Assembly (NCBI GenBank): GCA_016124795.1
Contig: WGNB01000042.1
Location: 1-64,000, forward strand
Reading direction: 5' to 3'
Length of the DNA stretch: 64,000 bases
DNA from: Rhodopseudomonas sp.
Lineage (GTDB): Bacteria; Pseudomonadota; Alphaproteobacteria; Rhizobiales; Xanthobacteraceae
Shown: positions 5,065 through 34,842 of the stretch, piece after piece
Position numbering within the stretch: position 1 is the stretch's first letter
Layout: the number at the start of each line of letters is the position of its first letter
Notes under the pieces: generated by a model
The model's input: the letters and a program-made list of their open reading frames with translations, nothing else
Told to the model about the DNA's origin: nothing
Database searches by the model: none
Translations under genes and position numbers: made by a program

Positions 5065-6681
5065 ATGAACCGCAGGCGATTTCTGACCCAGACAGCTCTT
5101 ATCGGCTCAAGCGCGATAGTGCCGTGGCTGAAATACATTCCGGCCGAAGCGGCGACGCCGGGCAATACCTTGGTGCTGGTGGCGGAGGACGGGCCCAATG
5201 GCCTCGATCCGCAGGGGGCGGCGACGTCGCGGCCGGTCTTCGGCGTCGCCTTTAACGTCTATGACCGCCTGATCACTCATGGCCGCAAGAAGCGGCCGGA
5301 CGGTTCGCTGACCTACGATTACAGCACCTTCGAACCGGAACTCGCGGAATCCTGGACGGTGTCGCCGGACGGCAAGACCTTCACCTTCAGACTGCGCCGT
5401 GATGCCAGATTCCATGATGGAACGCCGGTCACCGCCGAAGACGTGAAGTGGTCGTTCGATCGCGTTGTATCGGTGGGCGGCTTCCCGAGTGCACAGATGA
5501 GTTCGGGAGCGATGAAGAAGCCGGAGCAGTTCACCGTCGTCGATCCGCACACATTCCGGATTGAGATTCCGGCCAAGAACAAGTTGACGCTTCCCAATCT
5601 CACGACTCCGGTGGCCGTGATCTATAATTCGAAAGTCGCCAAGGCCCATGCCACCGAGAAGGATCCCTGGGCACGCGACTATCTCAAGATCACGGCGGCC
5701 GGCGGCGGCGCCTTTAAGGTCGCGGAATGGCAGTCCGGGCAGCAGATCGTTTATGCCCGTTTCGATGGCTGGAAGAGCGGCCCGCGTCCCGCCTTGGAGC
5801 GCGTGGTCATGCGCCAGGTCCCCAATGCCGGAAATCGCCGCGCGATGCTCGAACGCGGCGACACCGATATGGTCTATGGCCTTAATCCCAAGGATGCCAG
5901 CGAACTGGCGGCCGCCGGCGCGATGAAAGTAGTCGGCACGCCGATCGAGAACAGCATGTGGTATCTCGGTATGAACGTCACCAAGCCGCCGTTCAACAAC
6001 GTGCGCCTGCGCCAGGCCATCGCCTATGCCGTGCCTTATGAAAAAATCATGCAAATCGCGACCTATGGCCGATCTCGCCCGCTATTCGGCGCGACCAAGC
6101 CGATCGATGCAACCTGGCCACAGCCATTTCCTTACAAGACCGACATGGCCAAGGCGAAGGCGTTGCTCGCCGAATCCGGGGCCGGCGGTACTCTCAGCGT
6201 TCCGTTTTATTACAACACCGGGGCAGGGACGCTCATGGAGCCTACCGCCATCCTGATCGCTGAAAGTCTCGGCCGACTCGGCATCAAGACCACGATCGAA
6301 AAGATCCCCGGTTCGGTCTGGACCGCCAAGCTGCTGGAAAAATCCATGCCGCTTTATCTCAATACATTCGGCGGCTGGCTGAATTACCCGGAGTATTTCT
6401 TCTACTTCTGCTACCACGGCGCCAACCGGCTGTTCAACACGATGGGCTACAAGAACCCGGCCATGGACAAGCTGATTGATGCCGCCGCGGTTGAGACCGA
6501 TCCGGCTAAATATGCCGATGATGTCAAGGGTTTCGTCAAGATGGCGATCGATGATGTGCCACGGGTGCCGTTGTTCCAGGAATATCTCGAAGTGGCCATG
6601 GCGAAATCGGTCGACGGTTATACGTACTGGTATCATCGCCAGTTCGACGCCCGGCCGATTTCGAAATCATCCAAGGTTTAA
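5065..6681 (+). CDS. ABC transporter substrate-binding protein (family 5, peptide/nickel type)
   Basis: Tat-like signal MNRRRFLTQTALIGSSAI; SBP_bac_5 pattern LAESWTVSPDGKTFTFRLRRDARFHDGTPVTAEDVKWSFDR. Confidence 0.92.
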   Translation: MNRRRFLTQTALIGSSAIVPWLKYIPAEAATPGNTLVLVAEDGPNGLDPQGAATSRPVFGVAFNVYDRLITHGRKKRPDGSLTYDYSTFEPELAESWTVSPDGKTFTFRLRRDARFHDGTPVTAEDVKWSFDRVVSVGGFPSAQMSSGAMKKPEQFTVVDPHTFRIEIPAKNKLTLPNLTTPVAVIYNSKVAKAHATEKDPWARDYLKITAAGGGAFKVAEWQSGQQIVYARFDGWKSGPRPALERVVMRQVPNAGNRRAMLERGDTDMVYGLNPKDASELAAAGAMKVVGTPIENSMWYLGMNVTKPPFNNVRLRQAIAYAVPYEKIMQIATYGRSRPLFGATKPIDATWPQPFPYKTDMAKAKALLAESGAGGTLSVPFYYNTGAGTLMEPTAILIAESLGRLGIKTTIEKIPGSVWTAKLLEKSMPLYLNTFGGWLNYPEYFFYFCYHGANRLFNTMGYKNPAMDKLIDAAAVETDPAKYADDVKGFVKMAIDDVPRVPLFQEYLEVAMAKSVDGYTYWYHRQFDARPISKSSKV

Positions 6682-31438: not shown

Positions 31439-31516
31439 TCCCGCATCAGTAGGGTCGAGCGGTCAATACACCAGCCATCCGATATTACATAATCCTCACT
31501 CGTCGGCCGCCAAACA

Positions 31517-32749
31517 CTACCGGGCTTCGATGCCCTGCCCGGCGCGTAACGATCGGCTCATGCGATCAACGGTTGCGTCCCAGCGGGTCTTCTGGTCGGC
31601 CGGATAGCTGACCGCCAGACAGTGGATGACGTCGTTTGGCGCTTTGGAGAAATTGCACCGCTGATAGAAAATGTCGCCGTCGCGGGTACCGGATATGGCG
31701 AAGAACGCCGCCGTGACCCGCCGGAAACTGAGACCGTCCCGGCCGATATATTTGTTGAGGTAGTTTTGCGGGCTGTCGCCGTCGAGATTGTGACTGGCAT
31801 AGATCGTCAGCCGTGCGCGGCCGTCGGCACTGTGGAAAACCCGGCCATCGCCGTTTTCCGATGGCGGTTCCGGCGCGCTGAATATTCCAGCGGGATACTC
31901 AACCGTCGTGCCGTAACGAGCGTTTTCATAAACGGTCCAATTTTCCGGCGAGGCCGCGGACTGGACTTGTACCGGCGCAGGCGCTGCTTCGACGGTGGCG
32001 ATACCTTGCTTTTCGGCGCAAGACACCAACACCGGAACCATCGTCGCGTCAAACCGGTAGACGGCGACGATATTGGCGGCCTTCGCGCCGCGCTCGGATT
32101 GCACGACAACGAATTCGCCTTTGGCGGCTGCAACCATCTCCAGAAAGCGCTTTGCATCGGCCTTGCCGACCGCGGTGAAGCCGCCCTTTTTCGGCTCCGG
32201 CACGGAAAAAGCAACCGGACCATCATAGGCTTTCAGTATCGTGTATTCACCGGTCGTGAATTCATTGCCGCCTACTCGTCGGGTCTTTTCCTTGCCGGCG
32301 AAAATGCGAACCGGTGGGGTCGGTGTTGCCTCGCGCGGTTCCGGCGTTGCAAGGCGCACGAAAGCGCCAGGCGCGGCTATACCGATGTCGAGCCTGTGGC
32401 TGTCGCCCTCCTCGCGGAAATAGCAAGCGACCGCACCCGTCGGCGATTTGCCGACATAGACGCGCTTGGCCCGATCGAAGACGCCGGTCGGCGTCAACGA
32501 TCCAATCGGATCGTTCGTGCTGACAAACGGCGGGTCGCTCGGGCGCCGCCGCTCCGACGGCGGTTGCGGCGCGGGAGTTGCCGGGACGGGATGTCCAGCG
32601 CCCCGATTCTTTCTCAGACTGTTGAGATCGATATCGCCAAAGGGATCGCTCGATTGCGCCAATGCCGCAATGGGGGCCATGTCCGACGCGGCGATGATGA
32701 AAATCGCTGAGCTAACGGCAATGAGAGGCAGGACTCGGCGGCACGGCAT
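31517..32749 (-). CDS. Exported protein of unknown function
   Basis: Complete ORF with signal sequence MPCRRVLPLIAVSSAIFIIAASDMAPIAALAQ, Pro-rich linker, C-terminal ENWTVYENARYGTTVEYPAG domain. Confidence 0.8.
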   Translation of the reverse strand: MPCRRVLPLIAVSSAIFIIAASDMAPIAALAQSSDPFGDIDLNSLRKNRGAGHPVPATPAPQPPSERRRPSDPPFVSTNDPIGSLTPTGVFDRAKRVYVGKSPTGAVACYFREEGDSHRLDIGIAAPGAFVRLATPEPREATPTPPVRIFAGKEKTRRVGGNEFTTGEYTILKAYDGPVAFSVPEPKKGGFTAVGKADAKRFLEMVAAAKGEFVVVQSERGAKAANIVAVYRFDATMVPVLVSCAEKQGIATVEAAPAPVQVQSAASPENWTVYENARYGTTVEYPAGIFSAPEPPSENGDGRVFHSADGRARLTIYASHNLDGDSPQNYLNKYIGRDGLSFRRVTAAFFAISGTRDGDIFYQRCNFSKAPNDVIHCLAVSYPADQKTRWDATVDRMSRSLRAGQGIEAR

Positions 32750-32827
32750 ATTTGTTGTCTCCGAACTAGGGCCCCAACGGCGCGCCAAGACGTGTCAACT
32801 TTGTCGGAGGATCGCGGTAGCCGGACG

Positions 32828-32841
32828 TTGATCTACGTCAA
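32828..32841. promoter_or_regulatory. Candidate FNR/FixK-type box
   Basis: TTGATCTACGTCAA (TTGAT-N4-GTCAA), centre about 85 bp upstream of start codon at 32749. Confidence 0.55.
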
Positions 32842-32870
32842 CCGACAAAGCATCGGGGCTGAGGCGATCT

Positions 32871-34712
32871 CTATTGGCGAGAAATGTTCCACTTGCCGTT
32901 TCGCGGCGCTTTCCACAACGGCTTGCTGGTCCGGCGCAACGAAAGCGACCCTGCTGCTCTCCTGTCGGTAATTCGACCGTCGAGTTGCGCGGTAAAGGGA
33001 TAATTGTAGATCATCGCCATGACGTCTTGCATCGCTGCGCCAACAGCAGCGCCGGTGTCGCGAATGTCGACGGGACCGCGACCTGACACGGCGTCGGCCT
33101 TTACGGAGCGGCCGGTGAGCGTTGCGACAATATGGCCATCTTGCGAGACCTGGCCCGTAACGGTCGCACTTTGGCGAACCTTGGCTTTCGCGAGAATGGC
33201 GTCGAACGTTCCGGTCACGCGGTCACGGGTGATCGTCAATCTCAGCGTGAACTGGGTCTGCTCATAGCCGGGAATTCCGTAGCTGCCACGGCCGACATAA
33301 ATCCCGTCGAAGCCCTCCGGCTCTTCAAGGATATTGACGAGTTCCGCCACTTGGGCGGCGCGCTTGTCGTCCGGGCATATGGCGAGGCTATTTTTGAAGA
33401 AAGGCACCGCCTCGGCCGGCTTGCCGGCATTATAGAGCGACTGCCCGTGCTTCCAGAGCCGCAATGCCTGTTCCTGGGCGTCGGCGATACAGGCGCCGCC
33501 GATATTCGCCGCGACCGCCATTTCCCGAGCTTGCTTCACGGCGTCGGCGGCGTCGGCATATTCCTTGCTGTCCTTGCCGTAGATCAGCGCGGAGGACAGC
33601 ATCCGCGATGCCAGTGTCAGGTGACGGTCGTTGTTCGGATCAAGCTCAGGCATGTTTTCCATGCCGGCGATCACTCGGTCGAGATAGGTCTTGAGGTTGT
33701 AAGGGTTATTGTCGAGCGCGTGGCGGCCGTCCTTGCGCTCAATGGCATCCTTAAGCGGGCCCAGAATGATGTCGGTTTTTTTCTCGGCCGCGACCGCGGC
33801 GTCCGCCCGCGCCTTGTCATCCTTTTCCTTCTTGATCCGGCCGTCGAACGATTTGACGATGCTGGCGATAATCTCGTCCTCGGTGGTTTTGGTCAGGCGT
33901 TCGCGCAGGCCGTCGTTCGCGGAAGCCGCGGCGTCGCCAATTGCCGCTGTCTTCTGGGCTTCGAGATCGCGGCGGCGTACATCAATGACATAAGCATAAC
34001 CGCCGGTACCGGCGCGCACTTGATCGAGGATCAATTCGCGCGCCTTGGCATCGCCGTTCTTGTAATCCCTGTAGAGATCCTCGATCTTGCTATCGACGTA
34101 TTCGCCCTTGGCGTATTTCATCGCGCCGGCAGAGGCTTCATAAAAACCGATCACGCCGGCAGCTGGCGTCAGACCGATCAGCGCCTGACCGACATATTCG
34201 GCCGCGGCGCGCTGGCCACCCTTGGTGCCCGACATGGCGTTGCCGAGCGCTTGCGAAATTTCCCGAACCTTGTCGGCCTTGCCGATCATGGAGCCGAGCA
34301 TCTCGCGCGTCTCCGCGTTCGAACTGAGACGCGCAAATTGTTCACCGAATTTCACTGCCACCGATTCGGACGCGGCGCGGATCTTGTCGGGATCGCCAGA
34401 AGCATAAGCGTCGGCGGTATCTTCGGCGAGTTTTTCGAAATCCGGAGTCATGACCGCGACTTCGGCAAGGGCGCGGGACGCCGTCGGGTTTATCGTTTTT
34501 CGTGCCGCGTAAAGCTTCTTATAGAGCGCGAAGATGGCGGCCTTGGACTGCGATCTGACCAGTTCGTCTTTCTTCTGGTCGGCATAATTGAGCGCGGCCT
34601 CCCTGGCGTCCTTGCGCCAATCGGCATGGGCCGGGAAAAGTACGCATCCCGACAAGATGAGCGCAACAACGGCCGTCGATAAAAAGCTGCGTGTTCCTGC
34701 CTTCAACGACAT
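32871..34712 (-). CDS. Exported/lipoprotein-like protein of unknown function with TPR-like segment
   Basis: Signal MSLKAGTRSFLSTAVVALILSGCVLFPAHA (LSGC lipobox-like), Ala/Gly-rich hydrophobic centre, TPR-like QALRLWKHGQSLYNAGKPAEAVPFFKNSLAICPDD, beta-rich C-terminus. Confidence 0.8.
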   Translation of the reverse strand: MSLKAGTRSFLSTAVVALILSGCVLFPAHADWRKDAREAALNYADQKKDELVRSQSKAAIFALYKKLYAARKTINPTASRALAEVAVMTPDFEKLAEDTADAYASGDPDKIRAASESVAVKFGEQFARLSSNAETREMLGSMIGKADKVREISQALGNAMSGTKGGQRAAAEYVGQALIGLTPAAGVIGFYEASAGAMKYAKGEYVDSKIEDLYRDYKNGDAKARELILDQVRAGTGGYAYVIDVRRRDLEAQKTAAIGDAAASANDGLRERLTKTTEDEIIASIVKSFDGRIKKEKDDKARADAAVAAEKKTDIILGPLKDAIERKDGRHALDNNPYNLKTYLDRVIAGMENMPELDPNNDRHLTLASRMLSSALIYGKDSKEYADAADAVKQAREMAVAANIGGACIADAQEQALRLWKHGQSLYNAGKPAEAVPFFKNSLAICPDDKRAAQVAELVNILEEPEGFDGIYVGRGSYGIPGYEQTQFTLRLTITRDRVTGTFDAILAKAKVRQSATVTGQVSQDGHIVATLTGRSVKADAVSGRGPVDIRDTGAAVGAAMQDVMAMIYNYPFTAQLDGRITDRRAAGSLSLRRTSKPLWKAPRNGKWNISRQ

Positions 34713-34724
34713 CGCATACCGTTC

Positions 34725-34773
34725 GCCGCGCGGTTATGTTGGTCTGACTTCTAAGGCCAGATAACCGCGCGGC
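34725..34773. repeat. 13-bp perfect inverted repeat
   Basis: GCCGCGCGGTTAT-(23 nt)-ATAACCGCGCGGC between ntrC and the exported-protein gene. Confidence 0.7.
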
Positions 34774-34786
34774 AAGCAGCGATATG

Positions 34787-34800
34787 TTGATCTCGATCAA
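34787..34800. promoter_or_regulatory. Candidate FNR/FixK-type box, perfect consensus
   Basis: TTGATCTCGATCAA (TTGAT-N4-ATCAA), centre about 81 bp upstream of start codon at 34712. Confidence 0.7.
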
Positions 34801-34842
34801 TGAAGCCCGTCGCAGCCGGGCACCGATCAGCCGTTCGTGCGG

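Follow-up and report, generated by a model that had tools for sequence, protein, structure and literature searches.

Crp/Fnr-type boxes before a portable pair of genes for exported proteins in Rhodopseudomonas sp., and a possible low-oxygen periplasmic complex

The stretch of DNA considered here, called the window, comprises 64,000 nucleotides of one contig of Rhodopseudomonas sp., and the gene order and product names at the locus were read from the translations of its open reading frames. On the minus strand, the succession is dusB, ntrB, ntrC, gene A, gene B and a gene for a luciferase-like monooxygenase (Table 1). The reading frames of A and B both start with signal-like sequences of the Sec type, in agreement with an earlier note, made from the letters alone, which had described the two products as exported. 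The same note had placed a box of the Crp/Fnr type before each gene, and both were found exactly there, that of gene A being perfect. The distances from box centre to start codon were recomputed and also agree: 81 bp for gene A (ATG at 34712) and 85 bp for gene B (ATG at 32749). In the whole window, the pattern TTGAN6TCAA occurs at these two places only, with about 0.26 occurrences expected from base composition.

Table 1. Coordinates, within the window, of the genes, protein domains and regulatory features of the A-B locus
Feature	Position	Strand	Description
Gene A	32871-34712	-	encodes an exported protein of 613 aa, predicted to be mainly helical; residues 423-449 match TPR weakly
Gene B	31517-32749	-	encodes a two-domain exported protein of 410 aa
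B N-terminal domain	32000-32518	-	residues ~78-250; found on its own as an exported protein in relatives; of no known family
B C-terminal domain	31532-31948	-	residues ~268-406; PsbP/MOG1 fold in the model
Candidate docking motif of B	32615-32647	-	DPFGDIDLNSL, residues 35-45, next to the signal sequence on its C-terminal side
Box A, Crp/Fnr-family	34787-34800	-	TTGATCTCGATCAA; TTGATCGAGATCAA on the minus strand; perfect palindrome
Box B, Crp/Fnr-family	32828-32841	-	TTGATCTACGTCAA; TTGACGTAGATCAA on the minus strand; kept before 6 other B-family genes
Candidate -10, TTATCT	34759-34764	-	23-28 nt downstream of box A; putative class II spacing
Perfect inverted repeat, 13 bp	34725-34773		GCCGCGCGGTTAT/ATAACCGCGCGGC, 23-nt loop; overlaps the candidate -10 of gene A

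The spacing between box A and the hexamer TTATCT, which had been read as that of a class II promoter, was borne out, and the hexamer would thus fit a putative class II arrangement. This presumed -10 and the start region of gene A are spanned by an inverted repeat that is present in a single copy in the genome, which rules out an origin as a repeat element. Folded as RNA, the repeat reaches -37 kcal/mol (z -4.9), and a strong hairpin would be expected from it only in transcripts read through from ntrC.

Occurrences of the boxes were counted as patterns over the genome (5.14 Mb in 76 contigs), with the reversed patterns as controls. The perfect form, TTGATN4ATCAA, was found at 23 places, against none for its control and about 0.7 expected, and the form of box B, TTGACN4ATCAA, at 17 places, again against none. 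These figures indicate that most such sites in the genome are under selection, and they uphold the claim that the boxes are real Crp/Fnr-family sites, beyond chance. A few perfect sites are intragenic, for example in a reading frame read as flgK, so that one site by itself proves nothing. Perfect boxes adjoin ccoN (cbb3 oxidase), cydA (bd oxidase) and the gene for the small subunit of a NiFe-hydrogenase; ccoN, cydA and hydrogenase genes are standard low-oxygen targets. Others lie by a NapC/NirT cytochrome gene and a rhodanese gene, and one is common to a divergent pair formed by an MFS (NarK-like) transporter gene and a Crp/Fnr regulator gene. At the loci L007 and L009, perfect Crp/Fnr boxes stand about 66 bp before genes of the LigAB-type ring-opening dioxygenase and HlyD-type membrane-fusion kinds.

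Regulators of the Crp/FNR family, whose absence would speak against the proposal of the earlier note, are encoded in the genome: 16 proteins match HTH_Crp_2 (PF13545), 11 of them over the cut-off. One of the Crp/Fnr proteins has an FNR-like Cys cluster, and another, encoded at a distance of about 8 kb from ccoN, was read as FixK2-like. Proteins of the NnrR/DNR type sense signals such as NO, nitrate or redox, and the boxes might be real and yet be bound by a paralogue of this kind, in which case the pair would not be controlled by oxygen as such. The 11 proteins over the cut-off favour this explanation, as does the regulator gene that shares its perfect box with the NarK-like gene, and NnrR is reported to have sites much like those of FixK2 (PMC6710368). 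However, sites of the same form adjoin ccoN, cydA and the hydrogenase gene, and control by another signal is considered unlikely, though of appreciable probability. The FixK2 sites of Bradyrhizobium diazoefficiens have the form TTGA/C-N6-T/GCAA and commonly stand upstream of the start codon by some tens of bases up to about 150 (PMC9104804). This bacterium belongs to the same GTDB family as the host of A and B; its FixK2 regulon, which includes many targets of unknown function, shares with the pair the 14-bp palindrome and a similar distance to the start codon, and differs in that the accessible parts of the two reports (PMC9104804, PMC6710368) name neither A nor B as a target.

A profile of the N-terminal domain of B found 15 loci among 392 genomes of the family and, among 397 sampled genomes of the order, none outside the family. 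The pattern TTGAN6TCAA lies at most 150 bp from the ATG in 7 of the 15 B-family genes, these being the gene of this genome, those of three congeners and those of three genomes from two other genera. Two more genes have the box with one mismatch, and a clear box is missing before six; the two B relatives found in the genus Bradyrhizobium have no box upstream. Dinucleotide shuffles gave a mean of 0.019 and a maximum of 1 in 2000 trials, the sequences being related and so not independent. The box centre is 85 bp from the ATG of B both here and in G364, a genome of another genus, and 68-72 bp away in the other boxed B-family genes. Since the flanks of B differ between genera and the box does not, box B is taken to be functional, and the sequence comparisons make Crp/Fnr-type regulation of gene B through this box a well-supported proposal. 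That the two boxes are chance matches, as the promoters lacking one might be held to suggest, is hardly credible in view of the B-family footprint against the shuffles and of the genome-wide excess.

The earlier note had made its proposal depend on conservation of both boxes, and in this respect only half of it stands. The box of gene B is kept exactly before 7 of the 15 B-family genes, in three genera; that of gene A is missing before A in G364, the sole other A gene linked to B, and also before the operons, described below, in which A follows a gene called N, all this among few A relatives. Being perfect and suitably placed for class II but missing in the other A loci, box A is likely to be functional and of recent origin. 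An assignment of the box to ntrC or ntrY, or an ancestral place in the ntr locus, was ruled out, as congeners devoid of A and B have no TTGAN6TCAA downstream of ntrC. At L045, L046 and L047, in three congeners, lone genes for the N-terminal domain of B, with perfect boxes, lie directly behind genes for trypsin-like secreted proteases.

Neither A nor B exceeded any cut-off in Pfam, NCBIfam or PADLOC, and a defence system was ruled out on the lack of a PADLOC match. The statement that the products belong to no recognisable family stands for A and for the N-terminal domain of B, neither of which has a library match, and fails for the C-terminal domain of B, whose PsbP/MOG1 fold in the model means that B is not wholly unrecognisable. 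The AlphaFold model of B has a pLDDT of 75.8, with values of at least 90 across most of the N-terminal domain. In Foldseek, the C-terminal domain of this model matched PsbP (2vu4, target-normalised TM 0.66), Mog1 and DcrB with a probability of 1.00, and also LpqN, Tsi3 and SciW/EagT6; a PsbP/MOG1 fold is thus predicted. The likeness to the PsbP/Mog1/DcrB/LpqN superfamily lies in this predicted fold and in export, which B shares with PsbP, DcrB and LpqN. The C-terminal domain of B differs from it in lacking a match to any named sequence family and in being joined to an unrelated domain and, in the A-linked proteins, also to a DPFxxLDxxxL segment. The 50 best PDB hits included none for the model of the N-terminal domain, and a kinship with IalB, guessed from its topology, obtained no support from Pfam or hhalign. 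Several congeners encode this domain by itself, as a secreted protein about 200 aa long; the C-terminal domain, too, exists alone. For gene A, the match to TPR (PF07719) reached 18.8 bits against a cut-off of 27 (E 0.0017). With a pLDDT of 52, the structure model of A is poor, for which reason its Foldseek matches were discarded as meaningless. A resembles TPR periplasmic scaffold proteins in being exported and, by prediction, helical, with a weak TPR match, and differs from them in that this match falls under the cut-off, the model is not confident and most of the protein has no known relative.

A module of two genes had been proposed from the window, and the same order was indeed recovered in G364, where A occupies L134:6720-8474 and B comes next at L134:8738-9949, between flanks unrelated to those of the window. 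Several congeners have the monooxygenase gene, or ntrY, directly after ntrC, with no A or B between them. The recurrence of the order with other flanks, together with the congeners that have neither gene at this site, argues that A-B is a portable two-gene cassette. The segment between ntrC and the monooxygenase gene (31439-34842) has a GC content of about 0.60-0.61, slightly under that of its flanks. On the tree, the two A-linked B proteins fall together with a support of 91/86, that of this genome being a long branch. Some congeners carry spacers rich in inverted repeats beside ntrC, where A-B would sit.

Gene A has few relatives: within the family sample they come from G012, G364 and G525, and a further one, with a broken reading frame, comes from a Bosea MAG. 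A always adjoins a gene for an exported protein (5 loci), either B or the sequence-unrelated N, behind which it sits in G012, G525 and Bosea. A weak match of N in NCBIfam fell below the cut-off, and a link of N to the C-terminal domain of B and its PsbP fold was dropped after profile comparison gave nothing. In the A proteins linked to B (this genome and G364) there is an additional C-terminal region, which those linked to N (G012 and G525) lack. The N proteins have C-terminal ends reading DPFANLDTDEL, DPYEGLDMNAF or DPFKGLDMSEL, and both A-linked B proteins contain DPFGDIDLNSL just past the signal sequence. The motif D-P-[FY]-x-x-[LI]-D is present in five of five A-neighbours, two of which are close relatives, and in none of the 13 B-family proteins that are not linked to A; with the proline, it appears in no other open frame of the loci examined. 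Given its presence in all A-neighbours and its absence from the other B relatives, the simplest reading is that of a tag binding A, and we infer that B may dock on A through its DPFxxLDxxxL segment.

A and B could, alternatively, have become neighbours by an accident of acquisition, B acting as a microoxic periplasmic protein and A having an unrelated role. Most B-family genes have no A beside them, G525 and Bosea have A and no B next to it, G012 has its A gene and its B-family gene on separate contigs, and box A is not conserved, all of which is compatible with such an accident. It is nevertheless held to be unlikely, as the A-B order reappears in another genus with different flanks, the motif is confined to partners linked to A, which belong to two unrelated families, and both A-linked B proteins group together on the tree.

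The reading preferred here, to which a probability of roughly 45% is given, is that A-B is a portable cassette for a periplasmic complex, with B docked on A, belonging to a low-oxygen regulon of the FixK/FNR type. Briefly, a FixK2- or FNR-like protein would bind each box and activate the promoter as oxygen falls. Binding is strongly indicated at box B by its conservation and is likely at box A, whose site is perfect and whose spacing is that of class II; both oxygen as the signal and the identity of the Crp/Fnr protein involved are presumed. Both products would then be exported to the periplasm, where B would dock by the short segment after its signal peptide on the helical, TPR-like A, which would present the two beta-rich domains of B, one of them of PsbP/MOG1 fold, as an accessory module. 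From this fold and the regulation, it may be guessed that the pair assembles or stabilises envelope machinery used at low oxygen. If so, two unannotated protein families would gain an expression condition, a partner and an interaction motif open to testing, the Xanthobacteraceae FixK/FNR regulon would be extended into envelope proteins of unknown role, and a PsbP/MOG1-fold protein would be at work in low oxygen with a dedicated partner.

The fold matches to the immunity protein Tsi3 and the T6SS chaperones SciW/EagT6, and the patchy, portable distribution, would also suit an antagonism pair, in which A would be an exported toxin-like protein and B its periplasmic immunity or chaperone protein. 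This is highly improbable, since A and B both have Sec-type signals, no toxin domain, adjacent secretion genes or PADLOC match was found, and the box of B persists in B-family genes without A. 

A broader and more tentative form of the docking proposal is that A represents an undescribed, horizontally portable family of periplasmic scaffolds recruiting unrelated exported clients, B and N, by the DPFxxLDxxxL tag, with the B branch in the low-oxygen regulon; if this held, the alphaproteobacterial envelope would contain a modular system of tag and scaffold.

Plasmid carriage of gene A was looked for and none was found; the PsbP/MOG1-like C-terminal domain of B occurs alone, in hypothetical proteins, on Bradyrhizobium and Sinorhizobium plasmids (NZ_CP088101.1 and others). 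In the Bosea MAG, gene A is split by the frame break at approximately 5708-5759, and a perfect TTGATCTCCATCAA (L091:3077-3090), upstream of no clear gene, lies near a gene for a B-type C-terminal domain. At L049:1441-2469, a B-family protein has its C-terminal domain swapped for a different, beta-rich-looking sequence.
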